Notes: generated by a model from the sequence alone, not told the origin. 43,187 nucleotides of DNA from Clostridia bacterium (GCA_003251775.1 QKEK01000020.1:1-43187); one strand, 5' to 3'; counted from the stretch's first letter, positions 11,230 to 37,682 are shown. Translations and numbers: made by a program.

Positions 11230-11364
11230 CTTAGAATAAGGACCTTGTTGTTTGTACAATAAAAAAGCAGGTATAAGGTTAGCATGGAATAAAATTAACA
11301 AGAAAATTTACGTGATAAAAACTACTAGGCATGATAGTATTGTAAACAGTTCAGGAAAGAAGGG

Positions 11365-17443: not shown

Positions 17444-17466
17444 TTGAATCAACCTCCCTGATATAA

Positions 17467-17500: not shown

Positions 17501-17509
17501 GCTAGTATT

Positions 17510-18841: not shown

Positions 18842-18997
18842 TCCTTAATTTAATATTAATAATTACAAATTTACAACCCAAGCAAAAAGATGTATACTTT
18901 ATCCATGGAATCTCTTTGTGTGATTGTATAATGAATTAGTTCTCAGAAAGCTTCTTTTCTATGGACACTCTATCTGGGAATTTATTCACTTGACGAT

Positions 18998-19223: not shown

Positions 19224-20016
19224 TTAATTTGAATCCAGATTTATAGAGGATACATAATCATAAGGTGCATTATAAAACAAAAAGGCTTGTTTTTCAGCAA
19301 GCCTTTTTGTTAGGCTATACTTACTTAAGGGGTAATGCATACTCTTTTCATTATTGTCCTGCTCCAATAATAAAAGTATCTGTAATTTATGTTCCTTTTT
19401 TATCTCAACAAGCCTTTTAGAAATTTCCTTAACCCATACCTCGCTATGCTTTTCATCTACAGGAGGATTTTCCCAACATATTCCGTCTATATATTTTGAC
19501 GTTGAAAAGCAAAGCCTCTCTAGTCCATTATTTTGTATCAATATAATATTAGTGTGTTTTTCTCTAAGCTCTCTAACAAATTCAACAGCTAGGTTTAATT
19601 GAAAATGTGTTTCTAAGGTATTTAACTCTTTTAGCTCAACATTACCAATTGTACCCATCATAACCATAAATATTTATAAATTTACCTATATTATGATGTA
19701 AAATATTTCTCCATCTTTCAGAGCTCAGACTTACCATATAAGTATTAAATCTCTCATTTATGAGTGGCTTTTCATTAACATGAATAAAGTCCTCTTCATT
19801 TAATAAATTGTAATTAGGACTATCTTTAATTACCTCAATAATGCTAATATAAGCAATTACTAGTGTATTACTTTCTTTTATCTTATTAATTTCCTCCTTA
19901 GTATGAGCTGTGGGTTCAATTATAGCAATATCAAAGTTAGATAATTCCTTTGTTTTTCCATAACCATAATATAATACAAAATTACTGGCAGTTCTAAATC
20001 TTTCACGTAAACTCAA
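19224..20016 (-). pseudogene. GH114-type glycosidase (endo-alpha-1,4-polygalactosaminidase-like), split by a frameshift
   Basis: Two overlapping frames are the halves of one TM1410/GH114-type TIM-barrel protein. The N-terminal part (19642-20016, TTG start behind AAGGAGA) has FVLYYGYGKTKEL, FDIAIIEP and LVIAYISIIEV and ends in YGYDG. The C-terminal part (19224-19667) resumes at TIGNVELKELNTL and has IDGICWENPP. Family members read roughly GYDGhhLDTIGNVE here, so about 11 nt seem missing around 19651-19656. The deletion removes the LD motif whose Asp is part of the active-site edge. There is no signal peptide. It closes the Pel-like cluster; PelA's hydrolase domain is of a related glycosidase type. 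A true loss or an assembly error are both possible. Confidence 0.75.
19276..19311 (-). terminator. Intrinsic-terminator-like hairpin inside the 3' end of the GH114-like frame
   Basis: A perfect 14-bp stem (19276-19289 with 19298-19311; core AAAAAGGCTTG) with an 8-nt loop. On the minus strand it is followed by TTATAATG after a stem whose 3' arm ends in CTTTTTGTT. It has classical terminator shape but lies about 50 nt before the stop codon, within sequence that still looks like the family C-terminus. Confidence 0.6.
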
Positions 20017-20056
20017 AGCTAGGTCTCCTTATCACTAAGTAGCCAAATATATTTTT

Positions 20057-20101
20057 AATTCCACTATTTAAGCTACTCGAGCTTACTGAAATAGTGGAAT
20101 T
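20057..20101. repeat. Long hairpin between the GH114-like and HD-GYP-like genes
   Basis: A 13-bp stem, AATTCCACTATTT (20057-20069) with AAATAGTGGAATT (20089-20101), has a further AAGCT/AGCTT pair in the loop. The T-run (20104-20111) is on the plus-strand side, where no gene needs a terminator. For minus-strand transcripts the tail is A-rich, so it is more likely a processing or stability element than a terminator. Confidence 0.5.
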
Positions 20102-20131
20102 AGATTTTTTTCAAAAACCTACAAATAGTTT

Positions 20132-22006
20132 CTAGCTATTTCTATATAAATATTCACTACGTATAAAACAGCTTTTGCATTCATTTCCATGCTCTTTGCA
20201 AATAGAACCTCCAAAATCCCAACAGTTCTTGTCAAATTGCATATATGCAGGGCATTTACTACATATGGATTCAGGCGAGCATCTCATCTCCCAGCAAGGT
20301 CCTAAGGATTTACTCTTATCTGAAATTAGTTGTTTTTCAATAAACCAGTTAATTAAAGTGTTAACGATATTAGAATCTAATTGTGTTTCTGATGAATTTT
20401 TTAACAACTCTATTGCCTGTTGAAAGCTTACTGGACTTCTTTCTGGCCGCCCTGTAAGCTTAGCTAGAAAGGTTTGTATAACTGCAATTATTTTAGAGCC
20501 AATTGGTATTTCGTTTGCATGTAAGCCAGCTGGATATCCACAGCCGTCCATTCTTTCGTGGTGATGTTTTATAATATTGGCTACATTACTATTTCCTATT
20601 GTTGCACTGATTATTGATGCACCAACCTCGCAATGAAGCTTCATTAGTTCAAATTCTAATTCAGTATATTTGCCCTTCTTATTAATAATGTCACTTGAAA
20701 GCCCAATAACCCCAATATTACTAAGATATGCTGCCAAAGAAATATCATAGGTTTCAGCCTCAGTCAGCTTTAATTCTCTACAGATAATTTGTGCATATCT
20801 ATACATAAGCTCAGCAGAGCCTACTGAAAATGGGGCTATATTATCATACATTTGAACCAGTATCTTTAAGACATCCACGTATGAATCTGAAAAAGACTTA
20901 AACATCATATGATTATTTAAAATATCAGTTAAGCGGTTTTGAATAATTAATACTGCAGTCATTCGATAACTAACTATATCTAATGCCTCTCTGAACCAGA
21001 ATATTGAGTATCCTCTTTTGTCCTTAAGCTTTGAAGGAATAAGTATAAAAGACTCAACACCCACTGAAGCTATATATGAGGGTAATTCATAAAATACATC
21101 TTTATCCTTAGTTACAAAAAAAGATTCCTTGCCATGAACTAGCTTATACAATAGCTCATGCGTTTCCTTATCTTTAATAAATAGTTCTTTTATTTTATCC
21201 TCAAGTCCAATTACACTTATAACATCAAATTCGTTATAAGTGTTTTCGAGCAAAAATGCACCTCCAAAAGCTTCTATGGATTTAATACATAATCCTATAA
21301 TAATATTTACTGTGCTATTTATATCTCCTAATAGTCCAGATAGATTAGTAGACGCCGAGCTAGAGGTCAGTACTGTACTGACCTGATCCTTCATATAGTC
21401 CAAATCAATTAAATTGTTCACCACTGGAGAAATTTTGTCACAAAGCTTAGTTAATTTTGGTATAGATTTTTTTCCACTCTTTTTAACTGGTCCTATTCTG
21501 ATTAAGCATTTTTTTTGCAATAGTGGAATATCAATAACTGTAACCTCACCATCCTTAGCAAAGCTTATTTGATTTTCTATAAGTTCAGCTACTATAGATG
21601 TAGGATGGACATATATCTCTTTTTTATATGGAAGCAAGCCACTATAGGAAGGTCCGATATCAGCATCCATCGAATTCTCATTACGAGTGGCTTTAATCTG
21701 ATAAGTGTCGCTCTTTGCCTCGTACAGGTATAATGAATAATTTGCTGAGTACAGTACATCACTTATTAACAATAGGATTAATTCAAAGCTCTTATCTATA
21801 CCTTTTGATATATCAAGTATTTTTAGTATACGTTCATTAGTAAGGCTTTCATTCTTTTTTGCAGCAATATTTCTTTTTTGTAGTAATAAAAATACAAATA
21901 CAACTATATTTATTATTATTAAAATTATCAATATTAATATATAATTCTTTTCGACAAATAACATAATGTCATTAATAATAGTACTAGCATATTGCATTAT
22001 TGTCAT
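20132..22006 (-). CDS. Membrane GAF-type sensor with degenerate HD-GYP domain and two-CW C-terminus
   Basis: A 624-residue protein with one N-terminal membrane helix (about 21-43). Two GAF-like regions (about 60-205 and 225-375) follow, then an HD-GYP-related domain (about 390-525) and a cysteine-rich two-CW tail (CWEMRC near 571, NCWDFGG near 594, plus CKSC). HD-GYP enzymes hydrolyse c-di-GMP using an HD dyad. Here that position reads AAYLSNIG (SN at 429-430), the first metal histidine region reads SAELMYRYA, and the later VaD motif reads VIQTF. Yet HHHERMDGCGYP (481-492) is kept. The domain is therefore probably not a phosphodiesterase but could bind c-di-GMP. It is in the Pel-like cluster behind a leader shared with the GGDEF gene. 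The start at 22006 is used; the frame opens upstream at TTG 22036 within the leader. Confidence 0.85.
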   Translation of the reverse strand: MTIMQYASTIINDIMLFVEKNYILILIILIIINIVVFVFLLLQKRNIAAKKNESLTNERILKILDISKGIDKSFELILLLISDVLYSANYSLYLYEAKSDTYQIKATRNENSMDADIGPSYSGLLPYKKEIYVHPTSIVAELIENQISFAKDGEVTVIDIPLLQKKCLIRIGPVKKSGKKSIPKLTKLCDKISPVVNNLIDLDYMKDQVSTVLTSSSASTNLSGLLGDINSTVNIIIGLCIKSIEAFGGAFLLENTYNEFDVISVIGLEDKIKELFIKDKETHELLYKLVHGKESFFVTKDKDVFYELPSYIASVGVESFILIPSKLKDKRGYSIFWFREALDIVSYRMTAVLIIQNRLTDILNNHMMFKSFSDSYVDVLKILVQMYDNIAPFSVGSAELMYRYAQIICRELKLTEAETYDISLAAYLSNIGVIGLSSDIINKKGKYTELEFELMKLHCEVGASIISATIGNSNVANIIKHHHERMDGCGYPAGLHANEIPIGSKIIAVIQTFLAKLTGRPERSPVSFQQAIELLKNSSETQLDSNIVNTLINWFIEKQLISDKSKSLGPCWEMRCSPESICSKCPAYMQFDKNCWDFGGSICKEHGNECKSCFIRSEYLYRNS

Positions 22007-22113
22007 ATTTATATTCAATCCTTTCTTCAGGCACAAAACTGGAGTGAAAGAAAATATATTTTAACACTCTCATTCTCTAGTTACAGTATCACAATAAGTC
22101 ATTTTCTTTAACC
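22007..22113 (-). promoter_or_regulatory. Repeated leader element before the HD-GYP-like gene (unit B)
   Basis: One unit fills the whole gap between the DUF2304 stop codon and this gene's ATG. On the minus strand, GGTTAAAGAAAAT (plus 22101-22113) pairs with ATTTTCTTTCACTCC (22041-22055), mainly over AAAGAAAAT/ATTTTCTTT. A nested CTTATT/AATGAG pair differs in sequence from units A and C but is at the same place. The conserved tail TTGTGCCTGAAGAAAGGA follows, 12 nt from the ATG. Confidence 0.65.
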
Positions 22114-22485
22114 TTATAACTCGTTTTGGTCAATTATATCCTTAGTACTCTCGTTGTTTTTGAGCTTTTCGATTGCAAATTGCTGTGTAAGCTCTTTAAG
22201 TCTATTCTCAAGACTTGATATATGCACAGATTGATACATAGAAATGATAAACAATATAACGGTAGCTATAAGAAACATAAGTGCAGGAGGGTAGTCAACC
22301 CCAATAAATTTAGCTATATTATCAAGTAGTTCAGGAAATACTGAAAAAGCAAATATAAGAACACTACCAAACAACCAATAAATGGAGATATTTTCATTTA
22401 TTTTTTTCTTAACTAATAGATATATTATAAAAAATGAAAATGAAAATCCAATAACAATTATTAATAACCTAAGATATAAGCTCAT
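22114..22485 (-). CDS. DUF2304 family membrane protein
   Basis: A 123-residue protein with three hydrophobic helices: YLRLLIIVIGFSFSFFIIYLL in the first 25 residues, YWLFGSVLIFAFSVFP in the middle, and ALMFLIATVILFIISMY. A charged coiled-coil tail follows (SLENRLKELTQQFAIEK). Length and layout match DUF2304 proteins, which are regularly encoded next to GT2 glycosyltransferases of the dolichyl-phosphate-mannose-synthase type, as here, and are thought to be their membrane partners. ATG 22485 has GGAAG 8 nt upstream; a GTG two codons earlier is also in frame. It overlaps the GT2 gene. Confidence 0.85.
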   Translation of the reverse strand: MSLYLRLLIIVIGFSFSFFIIYLLVKKKINENISIYWLFGSVLIFAFSVFPELLDNIAKFIGVDYPPALMFLIATVILFIISMYQSVHISSLENRLKELTQQFAIEKLKNNESTKDIIDQNEL

Positions 22486-23212
22486 TTTCACAGCTTCCTT
22501 TCTCAGTAAATTTTTCTCTTAAAACTACAATAATTATACTCAAGAAAACCTTTATAAAGTAATATATTGGTTTAAGCCCAGAATGCATACTCTCTCCGTT
22601 TTCTCTATAATGCATAACTGCGGGGATTTCTTTAATTCTATACTTAAATCGTAGCATCCTTATTATAATATCTGCATCAGGATAATCACCAGGATAATTA
22701 CCCATTGTTGAATAGTATTTGTATGTTCTGTGATTTAGTCCTTTCAGCCCAGATGTTGGGTCTTTTATTTCATTACCCGTTGTCAATTTAATTAACATCC
22801 TAAAAAAAGACAATGCTATTTTTTTTAGAATACCAACATTATACATTTTCTCGCTAATGAATCTTGAGCCAATTACTATATCAAACTTATTGGTATGTAG
22901 TTCATTCATAATATTTAGTATATTATTGATATCATGTTGACCATCAGCATCAAACTGAATTACATACTCGTAATTTTTTTTTAGGGCATATTTAAACCCA
23001 GTTTGCAGAGCTGCTCCATATCCTAAATTATAAGGATGTGAAACATAGCTTATCTTTAGCGATTTCAAAATCTCCAAGGTACAATCCTTTGACCCATCAT
23101 TAACGACCAAAACATCTAATTCATTTATTTCAAGCTCATTAATACTTGTGATAACTTTTTCGATGTTCTGTTCTTCATTATATGCGGGTATTATAAGTAA
23201 AGTTTTCCCCAT
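22469..23212 (-). CDS. GT2 family glycosyltransferase (polyprenyl-phosphate sugar synthase-like)
   Basis: A 247-residue GT-A fold enzyme, starting MGKTLLIIPAYNEEQN. NDGSKD at 38-43 and the metal-binding DAD in FDADGQ at 88-90 are intact. The C-terminal part has HYRENGESMH, resembling the end of dolichyl-phosphate-mannose-type synthases, followed by one hydrophobic segment (YYFIKVFLSIIIVVL). It likely moves a sugar from a nucleotide donor to undecaprenyl phosphate at the inner membrane face, with the DUF2304 protein as partner. ATG 23212 follows GGGGGA. Confidence 0.9.
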   Translation of the reverse strand: MGKTLLIIPAYNEEQNIEKVITSINELEINELDVLVVNDGSKDCTLEILKSLKISYVSHPYNLGYGAALQTGFKYALKKNYEYVIQFDADGQHDINNILNIMNELHTNKFDIVIGSRFISEKMYNVGILKKIALSFFRMLIKLTTGNEIKDPTSGLKGLNHRTYKYYSTMGNYPGDYPDADIIIRMLRFKYRIKEIPAVMHYRENGESMHSGLKPIYYFIKVFLSIIIVVLREKFTEKGSCENELIS

Positions 23213-23257
23213 TTTTAGTTCCCCCATTAGCATTTCGTTGAATTTGTTTTTCTATAC

Positions 23258-24841
23258 TTATTTATCTAGCTTTAGTATTCTTATGCTTGTCCAATAAACA
23301 ACTGCAAATAATACACAGACGGATAAAACATAAGTCATTATATAGTATATATCGGTATACACTCTTAAATTATACCATATTTTTTGAAAGAATAACATTA
23401 AAATAGCAACAGGAATGTTAGCTATAATAACGTATATTATTCTAATAAATAGTTTTTTAAATTGGAGACCAATGTATTTTTTTAATAATGTTAATATACA
23501 TAATGAACTTAGTAGGCTTGCAATAGCAGCACCTACTCCAATTCCAGCAAGCCCCATGTGGTTAACCAAAAAGTAATCTATACCTATATTAAAAATTGAA
23601 TAGACAAAAAACACGAAAAAGGGCATCTTTAGCTTACCCAATGCCAGAAAATACTTAAGTGAAATAGCCGATATCCCTAAACCTACAATAGCAAACGAGT
23701 AACCCTTTAATAGATTAGAGGTAATGGTAAGTGAGCTCATATTAAACGCACCACGCTTTAGTAGTATCCATAAAATCGGTTCTCTTAAGATAAGGATACC
23801 AATAGAAATAGGTATGGTTATAATAAGTGTTAATATAAGAGTTTTTTCTATCTGAGCTTTAAAACCTTCATTTTCATTGTGTCCCTTGAGCTGTGATAGC
23901 TTTGGCAGAATTACATTACCTATCGCCGCAACAAATACCCATATAGGAAACTGAACTAATCTGAAGGTATAATTCAAGCCAGCGATACTACCAGCCCCTA
24001 ATCTTGAAGCAAAGTAGCGTTCTGCGAATTGAATCAGATAGGTACAAACCAATATGCCTATATAAGGGAAAAGAATACACATAATTTCAGAGAAAAGCCT
24101 TCTGGATTCTATCTTATTTATATTTGTATATTCAATACCTCTAGTCATTTGAGGATTAGAATTTGCTAATAATAGTTTTTTTATACTTATATAAGCTGGG
24201 ATCATTGCGAAAGCAAGCATACCAATTACTGCAATAAGTATTATGTATGCAAGTCGATTTATTCCTACATCAATTGGTGACTTTGAACTAATTTCTGCAA
24301 TGAGTCCAATTAAGAATATAGCGTTAAATATTATGGGTATCATAGAAGCTGATTTAAAATAACTCGTGGAATACAAAATTGATACACACACTCCGATTAA
24401 AGGGAATATAACAATTGATGGGAGTAGTGTATCAAGTATTGCTAATACAATTCTAAAATCAGTTGTAGATAGATTTGGATTTATTATATTTAGTAAATTA
24501 CTTCTGGTTATATAAACAGTAATATATAGACCTATCGATATAAATATAATAACTAAAAGTATCTTTTTAATCAGGTTAGTTAATAATTCGACATTCTTTT
24601 TCGCAATCAGAATTGAGAAAACTGGTACACAAGCCACCCCTATAGCAGAAGATAGTAAGCAATTACCAAGAGTATCTGGTATAAAAAATGCTAAATATAA
24701 AGCATCAGCTTCTTTTGAAGTTCCTAAATAGGCAGCTGACATAATATCCTTTAATAAAGCAATTACAGCCAAAACAATATTAATTAAAGAAACCCAGATT
24801 ATAGTTGTATTTATATCAAATTTGATTTTTTTTAGAATCAT
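23258..24841 (-). CDS. MurJ/MviN-family lipid-linked oligosaccharide flippase
   Basis: A 527-residue polytopic protein with about 14 helices. Family features include the early SAAYLGTSKEADALYLAFFIPD, read as two parts, and NAIFLIGL. The later region with AERYFASRLGAGSIAGLNYTFRLVQFP, again in parts, matches the MurJ core (Arg/Gly-rich helix pairs lining the cavity). It is the second flippase-type gene in the cluster besides pelG, so it may flip a lipid-linked precursor made by the GT2/GT4 enzymes rather than lipid II. ATG 24841 has GAGG 8 nt upstream; a longer frame from 24886 lacks one. Confidence 0.85.
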   Translation of the reverse strand: MILKKIKFDINTTIIWVSLINIVLAVIALLKDIMSAAYLGTSKEADALYLAFFIPDTLGNCLLSSAIGVACVPVFSILIAKKNVELLTNLIKKILLVIIFISIGLYITVYITRSNLLNIINPNLSTTDFRIVLAILDTLLPSIVIFPLIGVCVSILYSTSYFKSASMIPIIFNAIFLIGLIAEISSKSPIDVGINRLAYIILIAVIGMLAFAMIPAYISIKKLLLANSNPQMTRGIEYTNINKIESRRLFSEIMCILFPYIGILVCTYLIQFAERYFASRLGAGSIAGLNYTFRLVQFPIWVFVAAIGNVILPKLSQLKGHNENEGFKAQIEKTLILTLIITIPISIGILILREPILWILLKRGAFNMSSLTITSNLLKGYSFAIVGLGISAISLKYFLALGKLKMPFFVFFVYSIFNIGIDYFLVNHMGLAGIGVGAAIASLLSSLCILTLLKKYIGLQFKKLFIRIIYVIIANIPVAILMLFFQKIWYNLRVYTDIYYIMTYVLSVCVLFAVVYWTSIRILKLDK

Positions 24842-24910
24842 TGTGTAAACCTCTTTCTGCTCCTTTATAGTGTTTACTTCCTGCAATATTAGTAAAATTA
24901 GTCAGTAAAA

Positions 24911-25768
24911 TCAACTTGTTAAATTATGATATCTTTCATTAAAGCTGTCATCGTTAATAATTGAGCCTAATGCTTTAAACTCAAAATCTTTGAGTAGCTT
25001 TTCTAGTTTTATAGCGTTGTTTTTAATATTATAATAATGTATAAACTGTTTATGTATCCCTGTCTTTATGCGTGGTTGTCCCAAATCAAATTCCCAGGGG
25101 TGAAAGTATACCATACCATCTCGCTGTTTACTGACTAGCTTCAAAAGGTATTTTGTACAAAGGTAAGGCATAAATCTAAAATAAAATCCCCCTGAAAAAG
25201 GCATTTTTATACCCTTTAGCTTGAAAATAGTTTGGGGGAATTCTATAATATTTAGTCGTTTGCCATTTATGATTGGTTTAAAGGGTATTTCCAATGCGTT
25301 TTTAAAGCCTGATAAGGGTGTATTGAAGGGCTGTATGCTTGAGTCACATATAAAGCCTAGTTCATCTAATACCTCTAAAACCCATAAATTGTTACTGTTT
25401 ATTGTCCAAGATGGAGCTCTGTGTAGCACCACCTTTTTTGAAATTATGCTTTCTAATATATCTCTTGACTCAATAATATCCATTTTGAATGATTCTTGAT
25501 TGAAATCAAATAGCTTTTTATGCCACATACCATGTGTTCCAATCTCGTGACCTGCAAGGTCTATTTTTTTTACAAGCTCTGGGTGTTTTTTAGCAACGCA
25601 CCCTAGTATGAAAAATGTCGCTTTTGTGCTATTTTTCTCTAGTATATTCAGTATTATTTCTGTACTGCATACGACACGATCATCACAGCTACTCCAGAAT
25701 TTTCTATCGAAATTAAAATCATGTGTCATATACCAGTCTTCTACATCTATTGTTATAATATTACTCAT
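24911..25768 (-). CDS. Polysaccharide deacetylase (NodB fold, DUF3473 type)
   Basis: A 285-residue CE4-like deacetylase with no signal peptide, starting MSNIITIDVEDWY. Asp8 and Asp11 lie in the first metal/base motif. ATFFILG follows, then GTHGMWHKKL with His79 and His83 as zinc ligands, then HRAPSW (Arg117) and the late YFHPWEFD motif. This matches the DUF3473-containing deacetylases of exopolysaccharide clusters. It would remove acetyl groups from an amino sugar at the cytosolic face or on a lipid-linked intermediate. In Pel systems deacetylation is done by PelA's own CE4 domain, so this may be the functional replacement. GAGGGG precedes the ATG. Confidence 0.88.
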   Translation of the reverse strand: MSNIITIDVEDWYMTHDFNFDRKFWSSCDDRVVCSTEIILNILEKNSTKATFFILGCVAKKHPELVKKIDLAGHEIGTHGMWHKKLFDFNQESFKMDIIESRDILESIISKKVVLHRAPSWTINSNNLWVLEVLDELGFICDSSIQPFNTPLSGFKNALEIPFKPIINGKRLNIIEFPQTIFKLKGIKMPFSGGFYFRFMPYLCTKYLLKLVSKQRDGMVYFHPWEFDLGQPRIKTGIHKQFIHYYNIKNNAIKLEKLLKDFEFKALGSIINDDSFNERYHNLTS

Positions 25769-25777
25769 AAACCCCTC

Positions 25778-26944
25778 TTACCTTCTTATTATAAATTTCC
25801 ACATATTTATATCAAATAAGTATCTTAAGCAAGCTAATATAAAGCCCAGAAAAGGCAATGGATCAGCTATAGATATTATATCATCATGTAAGCCCTTTCT
25901 TCTACCTGAAAAAAACGAAGGATTCATTCTAAACCTATCCTTATTTGCGATAAAATGTAGTAAATCGCCTGGAAGAAGGTTTCTTGAAAGTATATCTTTT
26001 TTGTAATCAAAGCACTCTGTGCAAGGTTCTTCGATAGCAAGCTTGTATAAAAGATACGGAAAATCAACCCCTGATAAAACTGCAACATTTACTGGATTCC
26101 AGAAACGTGGGTTGATTTCAAGTAACATAGGGCGATTGCTCTTAGGGTCTATCATAAATTCTAAGTCAGCTACACCATACCACTTAAGATGTTCAAGTAC
26201 TTTTTTAGATATTTCAACTAATTCAGGGTAGAAAACACTTTTTTGTACAGTGCTAGGTCCATTTTCAATTGGGAAGAGTCGCACTTCTTCATAAACGAAG
26301 GAGGCTTTTAGTTCTGTGTTTTCGCCATATAGCAGGCACACGTCAAATTTTTTGCCACTTCCCAAGTAATCTTGAATTATAGGGAAGGGGAATTTATTAT
26401 GTATCTGTATATATACAGATAGAAGCTCCTCTTTTGACTGTGCTATTTTAATTCCACGAGAGCCTGAGCTTATCCTAGGCTTTATTATTACAGGATACTT
26501 AAGCTCATTACCTAGGCAATCAAGCTCATTTAAATCCTTAATAGTATATGTATTTGGTATATCTACACCTATCAAATTACAGACAGAAGAGAATAAGCCT
26601 TTATCCAATACGCTTTGATAGCTTTCTAAAGTCGGATAAGGTAGTATACATTTGTTTTTTAGGTTCTCCCTAATATCAGAGGTGATTTTCATAATTGTAT
26701 CGTCCATAGGGAAAAGAACGCTATCAGGATATTTTTTCAATGTATTTAAAAGCCAGTTAATAAACTCTTGTTTATCTTTTTTTGGGTCGGGATAAACAAG
26801 AAACTTGTGTATGTACTTTGAAAATGCTCCTATAGCAAACCTCGTTTTTTCACACGCGATTACCTTTATTCCTTTTGAACCAAGTGAACGAATACATGCG
26901 AGGGTTTTTGTTAATTGAGCGTCTGTTAGAATTACCGTTTTCAT
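25778..26944 (-). CDS. ATP-grasp family enzyme
   Basis: A 388-residue protein of the carbamoyl-phosphate-synthase-like ATP-grasp type. The N-terminal Rossmann-like part is at about 1-95 (VILTDAQLTKTLACIRSLG), and the central ATP-grasp lid has YPVIIKPRISSGSRG. The metal site is LEINPRFWNP, with Glu and Asn as ligands. The last 80 residues end in a hydrophobic patch (PLPFLGFILACLRYLF). Such enzymes ligate a carboxylate to an amine or similar nucleophile. In polysaccharide loci they are thought to add amino acids or similar groups to sugars. The substrate is unknown. It is 9 nt upstream of the deacetylase, so the two probably act together. Confidence 0.82.
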   Translation of the reverse strand: MKTVILTDAQLTKTLACIRSLGSKGIKVIACEKTRFAIGAFSKYIHKFLVYPDPKKDKQEFINWLLNTLKKYPDSVLFPMDDTIMKITSDIRENLKNKCILPYPTLESYQSVLDKGLFSSVCNLIGVDIPNTYTIKDLNELDCLGNELKYPVIIKPRISSGSRGIKIAQSKEELLSVYIQIHNKFPFPIIQDYLGSGKKFDVCLLYGENTELKASFVYEEVRLFPIENGPSTVQKSVFYPELVEISKKVLEHLKWYGVADLEFMIDPKSNRPMLLEINPRFWNPVNVAVLSGVDFPYLLYKLAIEEPCTECFDYKKDILSRNLLPGDLLHFIANKDRFRMNPSFFSGRRKGLHDDIISIADPLPFLGFILACLRYLFDINMWKFIIRR

Positions 26945-27016
26945 AGCTTAGTTATTCTCCAATCCAGTTTATTTGCTCCTATCAAATAATTTCTGTATAA
27001 GCATTTTTTAAAAATG

Positions 27017-28198
27017 TTATTCCCTACTGTATAGGTTGTGAAGTCTTTTTATAACTGAGTTAATTGAATATTTATCCTTAATTTCATTATAAGCGTTCTC
27101 AGATAGTTTTTTTAATAACCCTTTGTCTTTGCTTAGTGTAAGAATTGCATTTACTATAGATTCACTATTCTTTTCTTCTACTAATATTGCATTTTCATAG
27201 TTTGAAAGTAATTGTCCTAAGCCTCCACTTGAAGTCGAAATTATAGCTAATCCACAAGACATGGCTTCTAATAGTGACATGGGTGTTCCTTCTATATTTC
27301 CCAAATTACTTATTGAAGGAATAACAAATACATCCGAAGTGTTATAGTATTCAACTAACTCCTTTTGTTCAATATTACCTAAAAACTCAACATAAGGTTT
27401 TAGCTTGTTGTTTTCAGTATAACGGATCAATTCTCCTTTTTCTGGTCCATCTCCTGCAATAAATAATTTTATTTTAACTTGACTTACTAAATTTTTCATT
27501 GCTTGAAGTACAAATTTTACTCCTTTTGACTGAATTAATCTTCCGCTATAGATTAATATAAGCTCTTCTTCAGTAATTAAATGCTTTTTTCTAATATTTT
27601 GTCTTGTAAAACTATCAAAGCGGTAAAACAACTGTGTGTCTACAAGATTTCTAATAATCGTCAATTTGCTTTTGTTAGTATGCTTAGAAATTAGTTCATA
27701 TGAGTAGTTTGAGACACAAATAATTTCTTGTGCTCTTTTATACGCTTGTATTTCTTTTTTAAATAGTACTTTGCTCAATAAAGAATCCTTACCTATAATA
27801 CGCGTAGCGGTACCGCTGTTATACAGGTGACCATGAACAGTCAAAACAAGTTTAATATTCTTTTTTTCACACAATTTATATACTGCGTTGCAGGAATTTA
27901 TATCCTGACAATGAATAACATCATACTTAGATTTTTGTATATCAAAATAGACACTCATTTTAATTTTTAGGTTAACAAGCATAAACGCTAAGTAAAAAAA
28001 CAAATCAATGTCCAAAATTCGTTTTATAATCTTAAATTGAATTTCTTGAATATAACTAATTTTATTTATTTTACTATTTATTGGGCATAGGATTTTTGCT
28101 TCATTGCCATTTTCACTTAACCCTTTTTTTATTGTCTCTATATAGGAGTTTACACCCCCTTTAATTGGCATTACAGAGCTAACAATTAAAACATTCAT
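27017..28198 (-). CDS. GT4 family glycosyltransferase
   Basis: A 393-residue GT-B enzyme. The N-terminal acceptor domain has a glycine-rich opening (MPIKGGVNSYIETIKKG) and HCQDIN; the C-terminal donor domain has YSGRLIQSKGVKFVLQAM, FIAGDGPEKGEL and the EGTPMSLLEAMSCGLAII motif with the conserved E-x7-E pair. It has no membrane helices and should act on a cytosolic or membrane-face acceptor using a nucleotide sugar. It starts 1 nt after the stop codon of the upstream membrane protein gene, so translation is probably coupled. The sugar cannot be read from the sequence. Confidence 0.92.
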   Translation of the reverse strand: MNVLIVSSVMPIKGGVNSYIETIKKGLSENGNEAKILCPINSKINKISYIQEIQFKIIKRILDIDLFFYLAFMLVNLKIKMSVYFDIQKSKYDVIHCQDINSCNAVYKLCEKKNIKLVLTVHGHLYNSGTATRIIGKDSLLSKVLFKKEIQAYKRAQEIICVSNYSYELISKHTNKSKLTIIRNLVDTQLFYRFDSFTRQNIRKKHLITEEELILIYSGRLIQSKGVKFVLQAMKNLVSQVKIKLFIAGDGPEKGELIRYTENNKLKPYVEFLGNIEQKELVEYYNTSDVFVIPSISNLGNIEGTPMSLLEAMSCGLAIISTSSGGLGQLLSNYENAILVEEKNSESIVNAILTLSKDKGLLKKLSENAYNEIKDKYSINSVIKRLHNLYSRE

Positions 28199-28199
28199 T

Positions 28200-30263: not shown

Positions 30264-30276
30264 TTATATCCCCACC

Positions 30277-32253
30277 TTACTCCCAAATTTGTTGAGTGTT
30301 ACCATCTTTATCTATATCCTTCATTATATAATAAACAATCAGATTATCATCCTCGTAAAAAATCTCCAAATTCTTCTCGTTTTTAATATAATTATCTATC
30401 CATTCTAATAACCTCTGGTTGTCTTTTTCCAGCTCTTCATAAAAGCCTTGTAGGTTAGTAAAATTGGTAGTAAATATCTTTTTTTGATAAAAAATAAATA
30501 TATTATTTGCAATATTTTTATCATTATTTATTTCTTCTTTATTTGCATTGGGATATGTGCCTAAAAAGTTCTTAATATCATCATTAAAGCCTTTGCCCAA
30601 AGCCAGTGAATAAGCACCCTCACCAGTATAGATTGTAGTCCATTGGGTTGGTCTTATGCTTTCATTTATCCTTAAATGAGCTTCTACTATACTATCATGC
30701 ACCATTTTGTAAGGCTTAATTGGCATATAATATCCTTCGTAAATTCTTCCATAGCTAGTTGTCGAGAAAGCAACTATTAACACTAATACATACTGAAAAA
30801 TCTGGTTAAATTTAGTTTTTTCTATCAGCTTAGCTAAAGTAATACTATAAAAAGAGGCAATCCCAAGGGGGATAACTAAAGCCCACAAATGAATAGCTCT
30901 TGTCTCGATAACCTCGTTTTTAGTTATTATTGGAGCAAAATAATATACAATAAAGGTCGCTACACCAATAATAGAGATGTACTTCTCTGATGATAAAACA
31001 AAAATTCCCTTATCCCTTATTAATGAGTATATAAGCAAGCAAAGCAAGCTGATTATTGTTAGTATATCAAAAAAGCTTAACGATTTAAAGGTAATATTCA
31101 CCACTTGGCTAGTTAGATATTCAGCAGAAGTGCTGAATATCTCTGCCCCTAGCAGTTTCCCAAGTACATATGGAATCAGTACTGCTACACAGGAAATCAT
31201 TCCGGCTGTTATTAATGCAAGAATAGCTTTATAGTTCTTTTTTATTCCATTTAGCACTAAGAACATAATGACTATACATATACTCATTACAACTAAAGCA
31301 TACGGAATCAAATGAACATATGCAGTTATAATTAAGCCACTACTACCTGCAAACAAATAGGAATTCAGTCGTGTTCTATAGTACAAGAAAATAAAATATA
31401 TAGTAGGAAAAGCAAATAGTAAAGCAAATTCCTGTGAATTAGTAGCTACCTGTCTTTCAAAGTCACCCTGTCCTAATATATGTACTCCTAAAATGCCATA
31501 TATAAATGCCGCCAATAGGCCTGCGGCTTTATTTGCTGTAAATCTTGAAGCCGCAAAGTATAACCCTAGAACAATCATTAAGCTACATAATGGTCCAGTA
31601 TAATTTACAATATATATATTATCTATAAATGCAAACTTTTTAATAAATGCCATTGTAATATGAAAGCCTCTTGGGTAAATACCACCGCCGTTTTGATAAA
31701 AAAGAACTCTTTCGCAAATATTTTGCATCCATGCCATAACACTAAATGCATCAGACATCGAAGGAGCGGCATGCTTTGTGGGCTCTGAAAAACGAAGATA
31801 TGCTGAGTACCCAATTATACTAAAAAATGACAAGTAAAAAAGTAAATTACTACTTAATGATTTATAAACAATAGATTTTTTATTATTTATCAAACTTCTG
31901 GTTTTTGAATTGTAATCCTCAACATTATTTTTATCAAAAACATCAAAAATTCTTATTTTTATACCTTCTGTGAGCTCTCTAATATTATATATGGAATTTC
32001 TTGAGTACCTAAAAACAATAACAAATCCGATTACTGCCATGACTGTAATAATCTCAAACAATTTAGTTACAACAAGTACATAACCTAGTGTAATCAAAAA
32101 GGCGACCATCTGTAAAAAATTCATATACAGTTTTTCTGTAAGAGCATCATCTTTTTTGCTAAACACAAAATGAGGTAATAAAATATATAAAAAGAATAAT
32201 GAAATAGAGTATTTACTTAAGTTAATAATCTGATTTAGTACATCCCCATACAT
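30277..32253 (-). CDS. Multi-pass membrane protein, GT-C-like, paralogue of the preceding entry
   Basis: A 658-residue protein with about 12-13 helices. The shared motif is PSMSDAFSVMAWM (around 165-176; Asp168) followed by YPRGFH at 193-198, then the NYTGPLCSLMIVLG helix that matches FIGPLTGVLIVLS in the neighbour. The C-terminal domain (about 510-658) includes PTQWTTIYTGEGAYSLALG, comparable to PLNWTIISTQEHYNYVEDYG in the neighbour. GGGGGTG precedes ATG 32253 by 6 nt. It lies 12 nt after pelG. The exact function is unknown. Confidence 0.75.
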   Translation of the reverse strand: MYGDVLNQIINLSKYSISLFFLYILLPHFVFSKKDDALTEKLYMNFLQMVAFLITLGYVLVVTKLFEIITVMAVIGFVIVFRYSRNSIYNIRELTEGIKIRIFDVFDKNNVEDYNSKTRSLINNKKSIVYKSLSSNLLFYLSFFSIIGYSAYLRFSEPTKHAAPSMSDAFSVMAWMQNICERVLFYQNGGGIYPRGFHITMAFIKKFAFIDNIYIVNYTGPLCSLMIVLGLYFAASRFTANKAAGLLAAFIYGILGVHILGQGDFERQVATNSQEFALLFAFPTIYFIFLYYRTRLNSYLFAGSSGLIITAYVHLIPYALVVMSICIVIMFLVLNGIKKNYKAILALITAGMISCVAVLIPYVLGKLLGAEIFSTSAEYLTSQVVNITFKSLSFFDILTIISLLCLLIYSLIRDKGIFVLSSEKYISIIGVATFIVYYFAPIITKNEVIETRAIHLWALVIPLGIASFYSITLAKLIEKTKFNQIFQYVLVLIVAFSTTSYGRIYEGYYMPIKPYKMVHDSIVEAHLRINESIRPTQWTTIYTGEGAYSLALGKGFNDDIKNFLGTYPNANKEEINNDKNIANNIFIFYQKKIFTTNFTNLQGFYEELEKDNQRLLEWIDNYIKNEKNLEIFYEDDNLIVYYIMKDIDKDGNTQQIWE

Positions 32254-32264
32254 ATTCTCACCCC

Positions 32265-33887
32265 CTATGAGCCTGCATAGATATAATAATCCAAATCTCT
32301 TAGCAGTATAATAACCTTATAAGTAGACAATACAAAAAAGACTATTGTACCAATAAGTAATCCATACACGGCATCCTCATACTCAAATCTTCTACTAAGA
32401 ATAAATCCTACAATAATATTAACATATAACGCTTTTGTAAGAGACCATGTTACTAGTGATGGCTGAGAGAAGGAAAATAGAATAACTGAATTCAGTAAGG
32501 CAATAGCTAAGGTAGTATATGAAATAAGTGAAATAAGAAATACCTTTCTAGTTATTTTACTGGACATAATATCTGTTTCAATAAAACGATCAAAAACAAA
32601 AATATCTTTTCCGTTAATATAATATACAAGTAAATAAACCACAATTGCACTTATGATAGAGACTACTCCAATTACTATAACTCTGGATATGTAAAGTGAA
32701 AGATATTTTCGGTTTAGAGTAGTATTCTCAGAATGTAAATAATTTTTTTGATTAAGCTCTAAATCAGTCATTAGCTTTGTCACAACAACCTCACTAACCC
32801 CTATGGGTATAATAAGTGTTAGCAAGGAAAAGTCTAGTCCCAATTCATACTGACCCTTAAACCAAATTATATATGGCATAAAATCTTGGTTTCTTGACCA
32901 TGCCAACAAGCGATCTACAAACAAAAAGGTAAAATAAAGAAAACCATAGTAGAAATACGGAGCAACACCGTAAAGAATAATAGACATTCTTGGTAAGGAT
33001 GCCTTTATTCCTCTTTCCATCTTATCCTCAGATGTATTAAAATAATAAATGACTATGAGCATTCCCAAAACTGTTACTATAAAAAGTGAGATGATTTGTG
33101 CGGTAATAATATATACACCAAACACCTTAAATAGTAAATAAACCAAACCTATACCTGTTAATATTAAGCCTGTAAACAGCAATTCTTTTCTTAATATATA
33201 CATGACAGTAACTGACAACCATATGGTGCTAAGGAAAAAGAAATACAGCACTATGATTAAAGACATATTTATAGATATCATTCTTATAAAAAGATTCACC
33301 AAGAAAAAGACAACAGAAACAATTGCACATACAAAATAGCCTACCCGAACAAAATAAAAGGTCATTTGTCTTGCCATTCTATAGTAACCCTGTACAATAT
33401 AATAAAAGCCTCGTCGTGCGATTGCCTGTGTAAAGCCCCCTATAGCCATAAAGCTCATTATGGTACCTATTGCAATACTTGTTGCTAATTCTAACGATAA
33501 ATAATAATATGACCATAGTGAAAATCTTAAAAATAGCATAGCAAATACTGAGAGAGCCATTGGCAAAGCAAAAATTACTCCTCTTAAAAAGCTAGTTACT
33601 AGTAAATATACATGCTCCCCAAAAGAAATCCTTTTTGTCAATTCAAACTGAGTACCTGTTTTTTTTGAATTAATATTTTCCCATATGGAAACAGCAAGTG
33701 AAAAAACATCCTCATAACCAAAGGTTTGCTGCACCTTACTGTTATTCCATCCCATGGATTCCAGAAGTGCAGAAATCTCAAGCATATCCTCAGGCTGGGA
33801 TTGTCTTTTTTGAATGTCTTTAACTAAATTTACGTATACATCCTTTTTGCTATTATCTTTTAGTATTACGTCACCCAATTTAATCAC
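32265..33887 (-). CDS. pelG: PelG-like polysaccharide transporter subunit
   Basis: A 540-residue membrane protein with about 12 helices from residue 95 on, matching PelG, the MOP-superfamily protein that with PelD/E/F forms the Pel synthase complex. Supporting segments are SIILYGVAPYFYYGFLYFTF, with LFVDRLLAWS after it, and the many-aromatic helices QGYYRMARQMTFYFVRVGYF. The first about 90 residues are a soluble extension (EDMLEISALLESMGWNNSKV) not typical of PelG and possibly a docking domain. It is probably fed by the PelF glycosyltransferase encoded three genes upstream. It starts at GTG 33887 (8-nt overlap with the upstream gene) or TTG 33878, which has a better-spaced GGGTG. Confidence 0.75.
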   Translation of the reverse strand: MIKLGDVILKDNSKKDVYVNLVKDIQKRQSQPEDMLEISALLESMGWNNSKVQQTFGYEDVFSLAVSIWENINSKKTGTQFELTKRISFGEHVYLLVTSFLRGVIFALPMALSVFAMLFLRFSLWSYYYLSLELATSIAIGTIMSFMAIGGFTQAIARRGFYYIVQGYYRMARQMTFYFVRVGYFVCAIVSVVFFLVNLFIRMISINMSLIIVLYFFFLSTIWLSVTVMYILRKELLFTGLILTGIGLVYLLFKVFGVYIITAQIISLFIVTVLGMLIVIYYFNTSEDKMERGIKASLPRMSIILYGVAPYFYYGFLYFTFLFVDRLLAWSRNQDFMPYIIWFKGQYELGLDFSLLTLIIPIGVSEVVVTKLMTDLELNQKNYLHSENTTLNRKYLSLYISRVIVIGVVSIISAIVVYLLVYYINGKDIFVFDRFIETDIMSSKITRKVFLISLISYTTLAIALLNSVILFSFSQPSLVTWSLTKALYVNIIVGFILSRRFEYEDAVYGLLIGTIVFFVLSTYKVIILLRDLDYYIYAGS

Positions 33888-35214
33888 CCAATTCTGGAAG
33901 TAGCATATTTATGATTAGTTCTGGCATCTTACCTTCTATAGTGCATAAATCTATAGTTTCACTAGTTATTATTTGATTTTTTGCAATTATTATCTTACCA
34001 TTCTTGCTCAATATATCTTTTCCTGAGACTTTCCCAATAATATAGTTCATTTGCAATAGTTTAATTTCTTCCTTTAGCTTTTCTTTTTCGTTATCTTTAT
34101 TTTCAGAGCTATCTGCATTTATTTGCACATCTCTATTTTCAATGCTATTAGCATTTTTGTTCGTATTTTTATTTTCAATGTCTTCAGCATATTTGTTCGT
34201 ATCTTTATTTAAGCTGATTTGTTTTTCTGTATTCATAGTGTTAGTATTAATATCAGTCTTGACTCTATTTTTCATTTCATTCTTTTTATCTATAAAATCT
34301 TTATTGGGTTTAGAGTTACTAAGTGCTATATCAGTATCCCAAAATGAATTATTTTTTTGCATTGACGGCAAATTGATTGTATAAGCCACAGTATTTTTAT
34401 TTGTTAGTACCTCAGGTGCAGTTGCAACAACCTCAAGCATAGAATTAGATAATGTTTTAAGAGATTCTTGAATGAAAAGTGCTTTTGTTTCTATTCCATC
34501 TTTGTCTTCTCTTACATTACTGATAGATAAGCCGTCAGCAGTTATAGGATACGGTATGTTATTCCAATACAATGAAGAGCTAAGGCTTTTGTTGCTTTGG
34601 TTTTCATCTTCAGTTTTAACAATATCTTTTTTCTCAACCAATTCTGTTTTATTACTATTATCTACATCCTCAGCTTCAAAAGAATTTGTTTTTAATCTTG
34701 CTCTATCTCTGTATTGTATGATTTTTGCAGTTACTCTCTCTGTCTTGGTCTTTTCATCCCTTAATACATCTTTTTTATCCGCCACTTTTGTCTCTGCTGT
34801 CTCAAATGCTTCTAACGCCTCTAACTCTTTTTCTATTTTCTTCAAAACATCAAGGGTGTTAACAAATTCTGTATAAGCTTCTCTATGGCTAACCTTTAAC
34901 GCATCAATTCTCTCTTGCAATTCATTATTATTCTTATTAATCGTTTCTTTAGAAAATGTGGTATAGCTTTCTATTACTATATCTATGTTATCAACTGCAT
35001 AATTCAATAAGGATAGTGAGTAAGGGATGTTTTTTATATATTTTTTTAGCTCCGAATGCTCCTTCTGCAATTCGGTATACATTAGATTGTACTTTTCAAT
35101 CTCACTCTCTATTGATTTTGCGTTAATCTCGCCACTCTCCATTAAATTTTTAATGTAAGCATCTGTATTATTTACATCAACGCCAAACATTACTTTATTT
35201 AGTTCTTTAATCAT
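33880..35214 (-). CDS. Coiled-coil protein with Asn-rich 12-residue repeats
   Basis: A 444-residue soluble protein, unrecognised. Residues about 25-190 are coiled coil (IESEIEKYNLMYTELQKE; KKIEKELEALEAFETAE). A low-complexity linker rich in Asn, Lys and Asp includes three 12-residue repeats near residues 334-369 (NTNKNANSIENR type). The last about 60 residues are a small folded domain (YIIGKVSGKDILSKNGKIII then IEGKMPELIINMLLPEL). The C-terminal domain could be a docking module. It is between the DivIVA-like and pelG genes and overlaps pelG, so it is probably a scaffold for the synthase. ATG 35214 has GAGG 8 nt upstream. Confidence 0.7.
   Translation of the reverse strand: MIKELNKVMFGVDVNNTDAYIKNLMESGEINAKSIESEIEKYNLMYTELQKEHSELKKYIKNIPYSLSLLNYAVDNIDIVIESYTTFSKETINKNNNELQERIDALKVSHREAYTEFVNTLDVLKKIEKELEALEAFETAETKVADKKDVLRDEKTKTERVTAKIIQYRDRARLKTNSFEAEDVDNSNKTELVEKKDIVKTEDENQSNKSLSSSLYWNNIPYPITADGLSISNVREDKDGIETKALFIQESLKTLSNSMLEVVATAPEVLTNKNTVAYTINLPSMQKNNSFWDTDIALSNSKPNKDFIDKKNEMKNRVKTDINTNTMNTEKQISLNKDTNKYAEDIENKNTNKNANSIENRDVQINADSSENKDNEKEKLKEEIKLLQMNYIIGKVSGKDILSKNGKIIIAKNQIITSETIDLCTIEGKMPELIINMLLPELGD
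34099..34206. repeat. Three 36-nt tandem repeats inside the coiled-coil gene
   Basis: Three imperfect 36-nt units begin at 34099, 34135 and 34171, the last two sharing ATTTTCAATG and TTTGTTCGTAT. They encode a 12-residue unit (DTNKYAEDIENK, NTNKNANSIENR, DVQINADSSENK). The unit length is a multiple of three, so copy number could vary without breaking the frame. Confidence 0.7.
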
Positions 35215-35227
35215 TAGCATAACCTCA

Positions 35228-35626
35228 CTACATTTTTAAAATCTCATTTAGCTTATCAAGCACCGATTTAATGGTTAATTCTACACTTTCTTTTTCCTGC
35301 TGTATCAATTTTGTTTTCTCCAGCCATTCTTTCTCACTTAAACCATATTTATCAAAAGAGCTTTTCATATTAATACTATTTTCAATATAATTATCAAACA
35401 ATCTTTCCTTTATGCTTTTCTCTAAGCTTGTATAAGCCTCTTTTTCTCTATTTAATCTTTCTATCTCTATTTTTAATATATCTGCCTTTTCTTTTATATC
35501 GTCATACATCTTCTGTAAATTAATAGTCTTCTTCTCATTATCCTCTTCGATGGTCTTAATATATTCATCGACATCTTGCTTCCTATAACCCCAAATAGAC
35601 CCGTTTGTTTTCTTCTTTTTATCCAT
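35228..35626 (-). CDS. DivIVA-like coiled-coil protein
   Basis: A 132-residue protein. A short basic start (MDKKKKTNGS) is followed by IWGYRKQDVDEYIKTIEED, resembling the DivIVA N-terminal lipid-binding module (the GYdkeeVdefL pattern). A long coiled coil follows (MYDDIKEKADILKIEIERLNREKE) and a second to the end. DivIVA-type proteins gather at curved membranes such as poles and septa and recruit partners. In the Pel-like cluster it may position the synthase. ATG 35626 has AGGAG 8 nt upstream; the frame opening at 35659 has none. The structured RNA at 35697-35785 lies in its leader. Confidence 0.72.
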   Translation of the reverse strand: MDKKKKTNGSIWGYRKQDVDEYIKTIEEDNEKKTINLQKMYDDIKEKADILKIEIERLNREKEAYTSLEKSIKERLFDNYIENSINMKSSFDKYGLSEKEWLEKTKLIQQEKESVELTIKSVLDKLNEILKM

Positions 35627-35696
35627 ACTATCCGCTCCTAAACAAAAAATAATTAACATATATTAACTCCACCATGCATTTGGCACAAATAACGCC

Positions 35697-35785
35697 TGTA
35701 AGCGGTCTTCAAGACATTTCGTCTTGGCGATTTAACGAACTTCATTAGAATTTCTATCAAATTTGAAGTTCGTTAAACGCTTACA
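35697..35785 (-). ncRNA. Candidate structured RNA with three-way junction
   Basis: Between pelF and the DivIVA-like gene. On the minus strand: an 8-bp closing stem TGTAAGCG/CGCTTACA (35778-35785 with 35697-35704), then a 14-bp stem TTTAACGAACTTCA/TGAAGTTCGTTAAA (35764-35777 with 35731-35744) with an apical AATTT/AAATT extension. A 6-bp stem CAAGAC/GTCTTG (35721-35726 with 35710-35715) has a 5-nt loop. All three stems are perfect and nest without conflict. No T-run follows, so it is not a plain terminator. It matches no RNA family I can name. Confidence 0.5.
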
Positions 35786-35826
35786 TATTAACAACAAATC
35801 AAGAAATATTTTAACTGCTTACAAAC

Positions 35827-37578
35827 CTACGCTGTATTCTGGTTTAATAAACTTGTCAAAAGATTTGCTTTTGTTATTTCAAGCTCAGCCTCTTTGTGCA
35901 TACCAAGCTTTTCATACGCTTCTGCAATTGATAGTAATATAATAGGAATAGATATTGCTTCTGGATTTATTTCAATTGCTAGTCTAAATTGCTCAATTGC
36001 TTCTGTATAATGACTCATTTTCAGCAAGGCATAGCCCTTTATCAATATCTGCTGTTGTTGTGTTTCTAAACTACCAGCTTTATGACTGTCTTCTTCATAG
36101 TTCAAAATTCCCATACTCAATGATATATATGTTTTCATATAGTTCTGCAAAAAATTTCCTATCGTAAAAAGATTCAAGGCTCTTTGTCTCGCTTCTTCAC
36201 CCATATCATACCTCAATGAAGGATTCATAAGTAGCTTAAGTAAGCTTGTTGCCATTTGTTGATAATCCATTGGGTTTACTAAAAAGCCTGTATCGCCAAG
36301 AGCCTCAGCGACCCCACCAACGTCAGTTGCTACCACAGGTTTGCCTGATAGCATTGCTTCAATAACAGAATAAGGAAATGCTTCAGATATACTTGAAAGA
36401 GCTACTACATCACCACTTTTATAGGCAGCGGCTACATTTGAGGTATGACCCGCTAAAATAAAGGTTTCAGTTAAACCAAGCTCCTTTATTAAATCCTCAC
36501 ATTCCTTTTTATATATAGGCACAGTAACAGACCCATAAACAATAAACTTTACATTAGGTATATCTCTTTTTACAAGCGCAGCTGCTCTTATCATTGTAAT
36601 AATATCCTTAATAGGGTCAATTCTTGCTGTCATAACTACTGTTGGTTCGGGCGTTTTGGGTACACTTGCTTCACTAGATAAAAAAACCGACTTTTCTACA
36701 CCATTATAAATTACTTTGATCTTCTTTTTGTCTACTCCAAGCTTTTCTTCCCATTTGGTATTATACTCGCAAACTGGAGAAACCTGATCGGCAAAGTGAT
36801 AGTTTACTGATACAACCGACTGAACCATTCTAATTAAGAAGGTATTCATAAATGACGAGTATTTCCTTTGAGATAATGATAGGTACTGTTCTCTTAAATA
36901 AACACCGTGCTCAGTAAGCAAAAAGGTTGTCTTGTTCTGCATCTTAGACACTACACACGGGATACCACAAAAAGCTGCTGCAGTGGCATGAGCAACATTT
37001 ACATATGGTACAGGCGTATTAATTATGTTAAAAAATCTGTACACCCATAGTAGTGTCTGAATCATAGAATACACACCAGCTTGTGGCAATTTATTATGAG
37101 CATCTATTATATATTTACTAGTCAATTCCTTATATATATTCCAGGTCACTTGGGATTTAAAGCTCTTTTTATATTCATACTTCTGAAAGTAATTATAAAG
37201 TCCAAATACCGCATCTCCAAATTTTTCTGGATCCTTTTTTACAGATAGTATATCTTCAATCAATATCTTGAAATAGGGAATAAAATACTTACTTATAGCC
37301 TTATCAGTAGTCATTTTCTTTGAAAGATAAATTTTGGAAAATGGAGTAGTTAAATGCTCACTAGGCTCTTCAGTACCCCACAAGGGTACCTTAATAAGAG
37401 AAGCATTTTCTGGCAATGAAAACTTCTGAGTAACATAAGGATTCATTATTACACTGAAAACAGTAAAGTCAATATCAGGCAATTTATTGATAAGCAAATC
37501 ACACCAAACACTTACGCCTCCTTGATGGAAGGGGTAAGTACCTTCGGTTGCCATCATCACTTTTATCTTTTCTCCCAT
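35827..37578 (-). CDS. pelF: PelF-like GT4 glycosyltransferase with TPR-like tail
   Basis: A 583-residue protein. The N-terminus MGEKIKVMMATEGTYPFHQGG followed by VSVWCDLLI is the PelF signature; PelF is the UDP-GlcNAc/GalNAc-using synthase subunit of the Pel polysaccharide. The donor domain has VVMTARIDPIKDI, GHTSNVAAAYKSGDVVALSS and SEAFPYSVIEAMLSGKPVVA. After about residue 505 there is an extra about 75-residue TPR-like pair (GYALLKMSHYTEAIEQFRLA, then LLSIAEAYEKLGMHKEAELE). Classic Pel systems have a separate TPR protein, PelE, so this could be a partial substitute. ATG 37578 lies 11 nt after GGAGG; an upstream TTG is unlikely. It is the first gene of the cluster. Confidence 0.9.
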   Translation of the reverse strand: MGEKIKVMMATEGTYPFHQGGVSVWCDLLINKLPDIDFTVFSVIMNPYVTQKFSLPENASLIKVPLWGTEEPSEHLTTPFSKIYLSKKMTTDKAISKYFIPYFKILIEDILSVKKDPEKFGDAVFGLYNYFQKYEYKKSFKSQVTWNIYKELTSKYIIDAHNKLPQAGVYSMIQTLLWVYRFFNIINTPVPYVNVAHATAAAFCGIPCVVSKMQNKTTFLLTEHGVYLREQYLSLSQRKYSSFMNTFLIRMVQSVVSVNYHFADQVSPVCEYNTKWEEKLGVDKKKIKVIYNGVEKSVFLSSEASVPKTPEPTVVMTARIDPIKDIITMIRAAALVKRDIPNVKFIVYGSVTVPIYKKECEDLIKELGLTETFILAGHTSNVAAAYKSGDVVALSSISEAFPYSVIEAMLSGKPVVATDVGGVAEALGDTGFLVNPMDYQQMATSLLKLLMNPSLRYDMGEEARQRALNLFTIGNFLQNYMKTYISLSMGILNYEEDSHKAGSLETQQQQILIKGYALLKMSHYTEAIEQFRLAIEINPEAISIPIILLSIAEAYEKLGMHKEAELEITKANLLTSLLNQNTA

Positions 37579-37682
37579 TAGCTTTTTTTCCTCCACATTT
37601 ACTGACAAATGCTTTGTTATTTTAGTCGGCTTTTTTAATATCTATATACAATTATCATATTTATTGTAGCTTTGATAGAAGA

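Follow-up and report, generated by a model that had tools for sequence, protein, structure and literature searches.

A widely shared relative of the Pel cluster in Bacillota keeps the polymerase and its probable exporter among other conserved partners

The DNA analysed here (the window) is a stretch of 43,187 nucleotides from a Clostridia bacterium, and makes up all of contig C246 in a draft genome that is 93% complete and totals 3.42 Mb in 326 contigs. Between positions 19224 and 37608 every sizeable gene lies on the minus strand, mostly with spacings of a few bases, and the block comprises 13 intact genes (20132-37608) and one broken glycosidase gene (Table 1). A first-pass annotation had described a same-strand block of about 18 kb, and all of the genes that it named are present, on the minus strand and nearly back to back, except that the GH114-type gene is not intact and that the PelG-like protein has no family match of its own; the end that it gave for the block, 37578, is an in-frame ATG of PelF. 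Confident Pfam or NCBIfam assignments were obtained for the PelF, GT4, ATP-grasp, DUF3473 deacetylase, MurJ-like, GT2, DUF2304 and HD-GYP proteins; neither collection gave a confident family for the coiled-coil protein, the PelG-like protein or either of the large membrane proteins. Scans for promoters and terminators gave no more matches than chance, and neither a c-di-GMP riboswitch nor any other Rfam match was found in the window. The genes immediately downstream of the cluster (15343-18841, minus strand) are not conserved together with it; they encode a subtilisin-like protease, a protein of 443 residues without a Pfam match and a small protein resembling a lipoprotein.

Table 1. Genes of the cluster, in window coordinates, with the evidence for each assignment.
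Feature	Coordinates	Strand	Evidence
PelF-type GT4 polymerase with C-terminal TPR tail, 593 aa	35827..37608	-	NF038011, PF11997, TPR
DivIVA-like small coiled-coil protein, 143 aa	35228..35659	-	PF05103 E 0.016, below cut-off
Coiled-coil protein with conserved C-terminal segment, 446 aa	33880..35220	-	no Pfam/NCBIfam match; homologue in 21/22 loci
Putative divergent PelG: N-terminal helical domain (approximately residues 1-75) and 12-TM MOP exporter, 540 aa	32265..33887	-	relatives, fold
Large membrane protein, GT-C-like paralogue 1, 658 aa	30277..32253	-	no family match
Large membrane protein, GT-C-like paralogue 2, 687 aa	28200..30263	-	PF20176 (DUF6541) 28.5 bits, cut-off 29
GT4 glycosyltransferase, optional	27017..28198	-	PF00534 149.7 bits; 4/22 loci
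ATP-grasp ligase, optional	25778..26944	-	PF02786 51.2 bits and others; 16/22 loci
XrtA-type polysaccharide deacetylase with DUF3473, optional	24911..25768	-	TIGR03006 251.9 bits (cut-off 276.2), PF11959, PF01522
MurJ-like MOP flippase, optional	23258..24886	-	PF03023 157.9 bits; 11/22 loci
GT2, polyprenyl-phosphate-sugar synthase-like	22469..23233	-	PF00535 103.1 bits
DUF2304 small membrane protein, GT2 partner	22114..22491	-	PF10066 85.5 bits; overlaps GT2
TM segment, two GAF domains, degenerate HD-GYP and Cys-rich tail, 634 aa	20132..22036	-	PF13487 109.7 bits
Broken PelA-hydrolase-like (GH114/GH166-type) gene, N-terminal half	19642..20016	-	PF03537 E 5.8e-5, alignment
Same broken hydrolase gene, C-terminal half, other frame	19224..19667	-	aligns with C-terminal half of intact homologues

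Searches of the window's order (33 genomes) and a single-protein scan of genome contigs returned no close relatives. A profile of two PelG-like proteins, on the other hand, found 13 loci in the genome-contig collection and eight convincing genomes, that of the window included, in a sample of 399 Bacillota genomes; a class search added two loci (one of which, G079, is also locus L025), giving 22 distinct loci with the window. Matches in G250 and G520 were dropped as chance or fragmentary. Genes were counted with one profile per family, searched over all ORFs of the 22 loci, and, as the loci from the contig collection reach 10 kb either side, absences refer to the sequence covered. PelF, the PelG-like protein (in pieces in G330) and at least one GT-C-like protein occur in all 22 loci, followed by the coiled-coil (21/22), HD-GYP (20/22), GT2 (19/22), DivIVA-like (18/22), GH114-type and ATP-grasp (16/22 each), DUF3473 (14/22), DUF2304 (13/22), MurJ-like (11/22) and GT4 (4/22) proteins. 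The two loci lacking HD-GYP, L021 and L024, are both interrupted by the locus end, the six lacking the GH114-type gene all end inside or before HD-GYP, and in all 14 loci besides the window that have both genes the two adjoin. On these counts the core of the cluster is PelF, the PelG-like protein, the coiled-coil protein, the GT-C-like proteins, HD-GYP and the GH114-type protein, the other genes being accessory.

The same block recurs at 21 other Bacillota loci from many families, and such an arrangement is far beyond chance. Most of the relatives are MAGs, and as some are recorded under Bacillales or Bacillaceae, the earlier suggestion of a new Pel-related system in Clostridia holds as regards its kinship and novelty but not its confinement to Clostridia. 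At locus L009 (G330) the PelG-like (11200-12950), deacetylase (16315-17297) and MurJ-like (17269-18878) genes are each split by frames or a stop, which is either decay or assembly error. The sister loci L007 (G079; 4064-11751) and L024 (906-6870) carry a run of other genes between the GH114-type gene and PelF.

The PelF-type protein matched the NCBIfam PelF model with 165.9 bits (cut-off 100), against 117.7 bits for the runner-up family, and PF11997 with 141.8 bits (cut-off 23.3), together with a TPR match in Pfam; PelF leads the NCBIfam matches clearly, and, judged by these scores, the identity of the protein as PelF is secure. A tree built from the 22 new PelFs, 10 canonical ones and other GT4s, with ORF can_L080 excluded, split the new from the canonical PelFs with 99/99 support, the other GT4s falling outside. 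An EX7E motif and an extra tail are common to the divergent clade, the C-terminal tail being found in 21 of its 22 PelFs compared with none of the 10 canonical ones. This distribution, with the TPR match of the window protein, goes part of the way towards the earlier proposal that the tail stands in for PelE.

The PelG call needed the relatives of the window protein, because that protein matches no Pfam or NCBIfam model even at an E-value of 0.1. The PelG model PF16933 was matched by seven of the 21 members of the PelG-like family (best 1.4e-7), the homologue in G678 exceeding its cut-off, and no other transporter family was matched. Aligned with canonical PelG by hhalign, the family gave an E-value of 0.0012 over 389 columns, collinear to the C-terminus but with a probability of only 19%, compared with an E-value of 0.023 against the MurJ-like family of the cluster; the profile comparison thus appears, at low probability, to favour canonical PelG. 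An HMM built from seven canonical PelGs recovered none of the new ones, so that the case for homology is carried by hhalign, the fold and the deeper Pfam model. The AlphaFold2 model (pLDDT 76) has 12 long helices in addition to a helical domain at the N-terminus, and with it Foldseek matched MATE, WzxE and MurJ structures; a profile search of the PDB gave nothing useful. The assignment as a divergent PelG would seem right but indirect. Its residues 1-75 (33663-33887, minus strand) form a conserved soluble helical domain (PEDxYEIAAxLESxGWND) outside the canonical PelG match.

The GAF domains of the HD-GYP-like protein matched the GAF chains 3ci6 and 1ykd, and Foldseek with its AlphaFold2 model returned the HD-GYP phosphodiesterase PmGH (4mcw) and tandem GAFs. 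The protein shares with PmGH the fold and the HHExxDGxGYP sequence, but differs from it in that the first His, the HD pair, the VxD aspartate and the HDxGK lysine have been lost in most members, all together in eight of the ten aligned. The window protein has GSA for GHS, SN for HD and Q for the VxD aspartate, and seven other members are likewise degenerate. The later His, HH, DGxGYP and two arginines are kept, with GYP 500-502, R530 and R533 (RxxR) invariant in all ten. The remaining two members (L022 and G678/L056) keep the metal ligands, without the HDxGK lysine, and the L022 and G678 proteins may be active phosphodiesterases. Such a residue pattern would be expected of a receptor that descends from a phosphodiesterase, and we regard the protein as a putative c-di-GMP-sensing subunit. 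Its loss of ligands runs parallel to PelD, which carries a degenerate GGDEF domain (PMC7112168), and the combination of a TM segment, two GAF domains and a degenerate c-di-GMP domain lends partial support to the idea, already put forward, that it takes the place of PelD. As the genome encodes 21 GGDEF domains, c-di-GMP is probably made in this organism. One GGDEF protein lies in the window (2845-4056, minus strand; PF00990, 143.8 bits at 2872-3324), some 15 kb from the cluster, and is a possible source. The Cys-rich tail (20135-20320, minus strand), with the pattern CWxMRC..ICxKCPA..CWE..C..HGNxCxTC, is conserved also at L016, L018, L019 and L022, matches no family and is perhaps a metal or redox site.

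The two ORFs of the broken glycosidase gene meet at the conserved GYDGxFLDT motif, which is kept by the intact homologues, single ORFs of about 250-310 residues; the frameshift is either biology or assembly error. The best solved relatives of the family profile are the PelA hydrolase structures 9cgy/5tcb (E = 2.4e-19), a notable kinship that may link the cluster to a galactosamine polymer. A hydrophobic N-terminus was found in none of 15 glycosidases and none of 13 deacetylases of these families, compared with six of six canonical PelA deacetylases, and the DUF3473 deacetylase of the window has neither signal peptide nor TM segment. Because they lack a hydrophobic N-terminus, both enzymes should act inside the cell, and they therefore do not simply take over from the PelA domains, which are exported. 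The deacetylase is, moreover, absent from eight of the 22 loci, some of which end early. What survives of the proposal that these enzymes stand in for PelA is the closeness of the glycosidase to the PelA hydrolase; the lack of export signals, the optional deacetylase and the broken gene in the window speak against it.

The first of the two large membrane proteins has approximately 9-11 hydrophobic helices and found no match in a profile search of the PDB. Every locus has a homologue of one or other paralogue, and paralogue 2 homologues cross-match paralogue 1; we infer a GT-C-type character for both, with one sub-threshold DUF6541 match (28.5 bits, cut-off 29). For the GT2 protein, the only PDB match under 1e-10 was dolichol-phosphate mannose synthase (5mlz, E = 3.8e-12), and as it also accompanies DUF2304, it is most naturally read as supplying the GT-C-like proteins with a polyprenyl-phosphate sugar. 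The DivIVA-like counterparts were counted with a family profile. The C-terminal end of the coiled-coil protein (33880-34070, minus strand) is a globular-looking segment, IGKVSGKDILSKNGKIIIAKNQIITSETI, without a family match.

We searched 399 Bacillota genomes with PF11997, and 19 proved to have a PelF above the cut-off. In 11 of them it scores 168-293 bits, and nine of these 11 have a canonical PelG (300-genome search); the other eight, at 138-153 bits, are exactly the eight genomes with the PelG-like protein, so that divergent PelF and PelG-like are never found apart (8/8). Canonical loci, from six genomes, hold pelD, pelE, DUF2194 pelA and pelFG together. At the 22 new loci, a canonical PelE profile that recovers six of six controls gave no match, and a PelD profile recovering all of its controls matched just epimerase-like genes, because PelD has an epimerase domain; the PelA deacetylase profile, which also recovered all of its controls, gave one 13-bit match, to the DUF3473 protein of one locus. 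In the window's genome there was no match to PF16963 (PelD; a search with no positive control), to PF09960 (the DUF2194 PelA deacetylase, for which the positive control worked) or to PF16933, and PelF is present in one copy only. The first-pass claim of PelF and PelG without PelD, PelE or a classic PelA is thereby borne out at the locus, and a canonical operon sought elsewhere in the 93%-complete assembly was not found. GalE-type epimerases lie near six loci and fit, weakly, a UDP-galactose or UDP-GalNAc donor. We found no description of this gene arrangement in the literature.

The Gram-positive pelDEA(DA)FG operon of Bacillus cereus ATCC 10987 (PMC7112168) has in common with the new loci a PelF polymerase, a PelG MOP exporter (putative in the new loci) and a PelA-hydrolase relative nearby, as well as GalE-type epimerases (near some of the new loci) and a membrane protein with GAF and a degenerate c-di-GMP domain. 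The new loci differ in having no PelD, PelE or DUF2194 PelA deacetylase, in the TPR tail of PelF, in a nearly unrecognisable PelG with its N-terminal domain, and in the coiled-coil, DivIVA-like and GT-C-like proteins as constant partners. The likeness to the Pseudomonas pelABCDEFG operon likewise lies in PelF, PelG and hydrolase homology; however, PelA there is periplasmic and bifunctional (PMC9894940), whereas the new loci have two separate enzymes without export signals, and PelD and PelE are missing. The DUF3473 deacetylase recalls the XrtA/PEP-CTERM exopolysaccharide loci (TIGR03006, 252 bits), but its score is below the cut-off of 276 and no exosortase-type gene is among the conserved genes. 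The cluster is a new conserved variant of Pel-type secretion and not a canonical Pel operon.

We think it reasonably probable that the cluster encodes a Bacillota exopolysaccharide system of Pel type, divergent and self-contained, which works as follows. By homology, PelF would polymerise a nucleotide sugar in the cytoplasm, UDP-GalNAc being a guess, and pass the chain to the PelG-like exporter, while the DivIVA-like protein, the coiled-coil protein and the PelF tail would hold or place the complex, as PelE does. The HD-GYP-like membrane protein, with its two GAF domains and a catalytic metal site that is mostly gone, would be the switch that senses c-di-GMP, filling the role of PelD by means of a nucleotide-binding domain unrelated to that of PelD. 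A polyprenyl-phosphate sugar would be made by GT2 and DUF2304, which the two GT-C-like proteins may attach as side groups outside the membrane, and the cytoplasmic PelA-hydrolase relative may trim or clear intracellular polymer. A bolder form of this model, which we advance only tentatively, is that of a second, anciently separate Pel lineage in which c-di-GMP control has shifted from a degenerate GGDEF domain (PelD) to a degenerate HD-GYP receptor and in which lipid-phosphate-dependent GT-C decoration outside the membrane would yield a branched or new polysaccharide.

The sharing of one block by MurJ-like, GT4, GT2, ATP-grasp and GT-C-like genes could instead suggest a lipid-linked (Wzx/Wzy-like) glycan locus, with the MurJ-like protein as flippase, a GT-C-like protein as polymerase or ligase and PelF as one ordinary glycosyltransferase of several. 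We consider this unlikely: only half of the loci have the MurJ-like gene and four of 22 have GT4, compared with all 22 for PelF, the PelG-like protein and a GT-C-like protein; the core is found without the MurJ-like gene in L014, L016, L018, L019, L022 and G407; and divergent PelF and PelG-like are never apart in the 399 genomes. Equally unlikely is that Pel-derived machinery makes not a biofilm matrix but a surface glycan of the spore coat or the cell pole, a reading in which the DivIVA-like protein would place the machinery at the pole or septum and the HD-GYP-like protein would sense a signal other than c-di-GMP. The presence of the DivIVA-like gene at 18 of 22 loci, the loss of the HDxGK lysine and the Cys-rich tail, which suggests another cue, are all in its favour, but the DivIVA match is below cut-off and no sporulation gene is in the conserved set. 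As the assembly is a draft in many contigs, a canonical Pel system with its PelD, PelE and PelA genes elsewhere in the genome was also considered; given the genome-wide searches above, with their single PelF (and with the PelD search lacking a control), and 21 relatives of the same arrangement whose loci have no PelD, PelE or PelA-deacetylase genes, this is very improbable.

The cluster is a widely shared Pel relative in which the polymerase and a probable exporter partner have been kept and the usual regulatory and modifying partners replaced by other conserved proteins. The divergent type accounts for eight of the 19 PelF genomes in the 399-genome Bacillota sample, and Pel-like potential in this phylum is undercounted, since the PelG half mostly escapes the family models. 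If the model is true, the PelF–PelG pair would be a portable polymerase–exporter module that can be rewired to other regulators and finishing enzymes, and a dead HD-GYP protein replacing PelD would offer a direct and testable example of one control job being taken on by two dead enzymes unrelated to each other.
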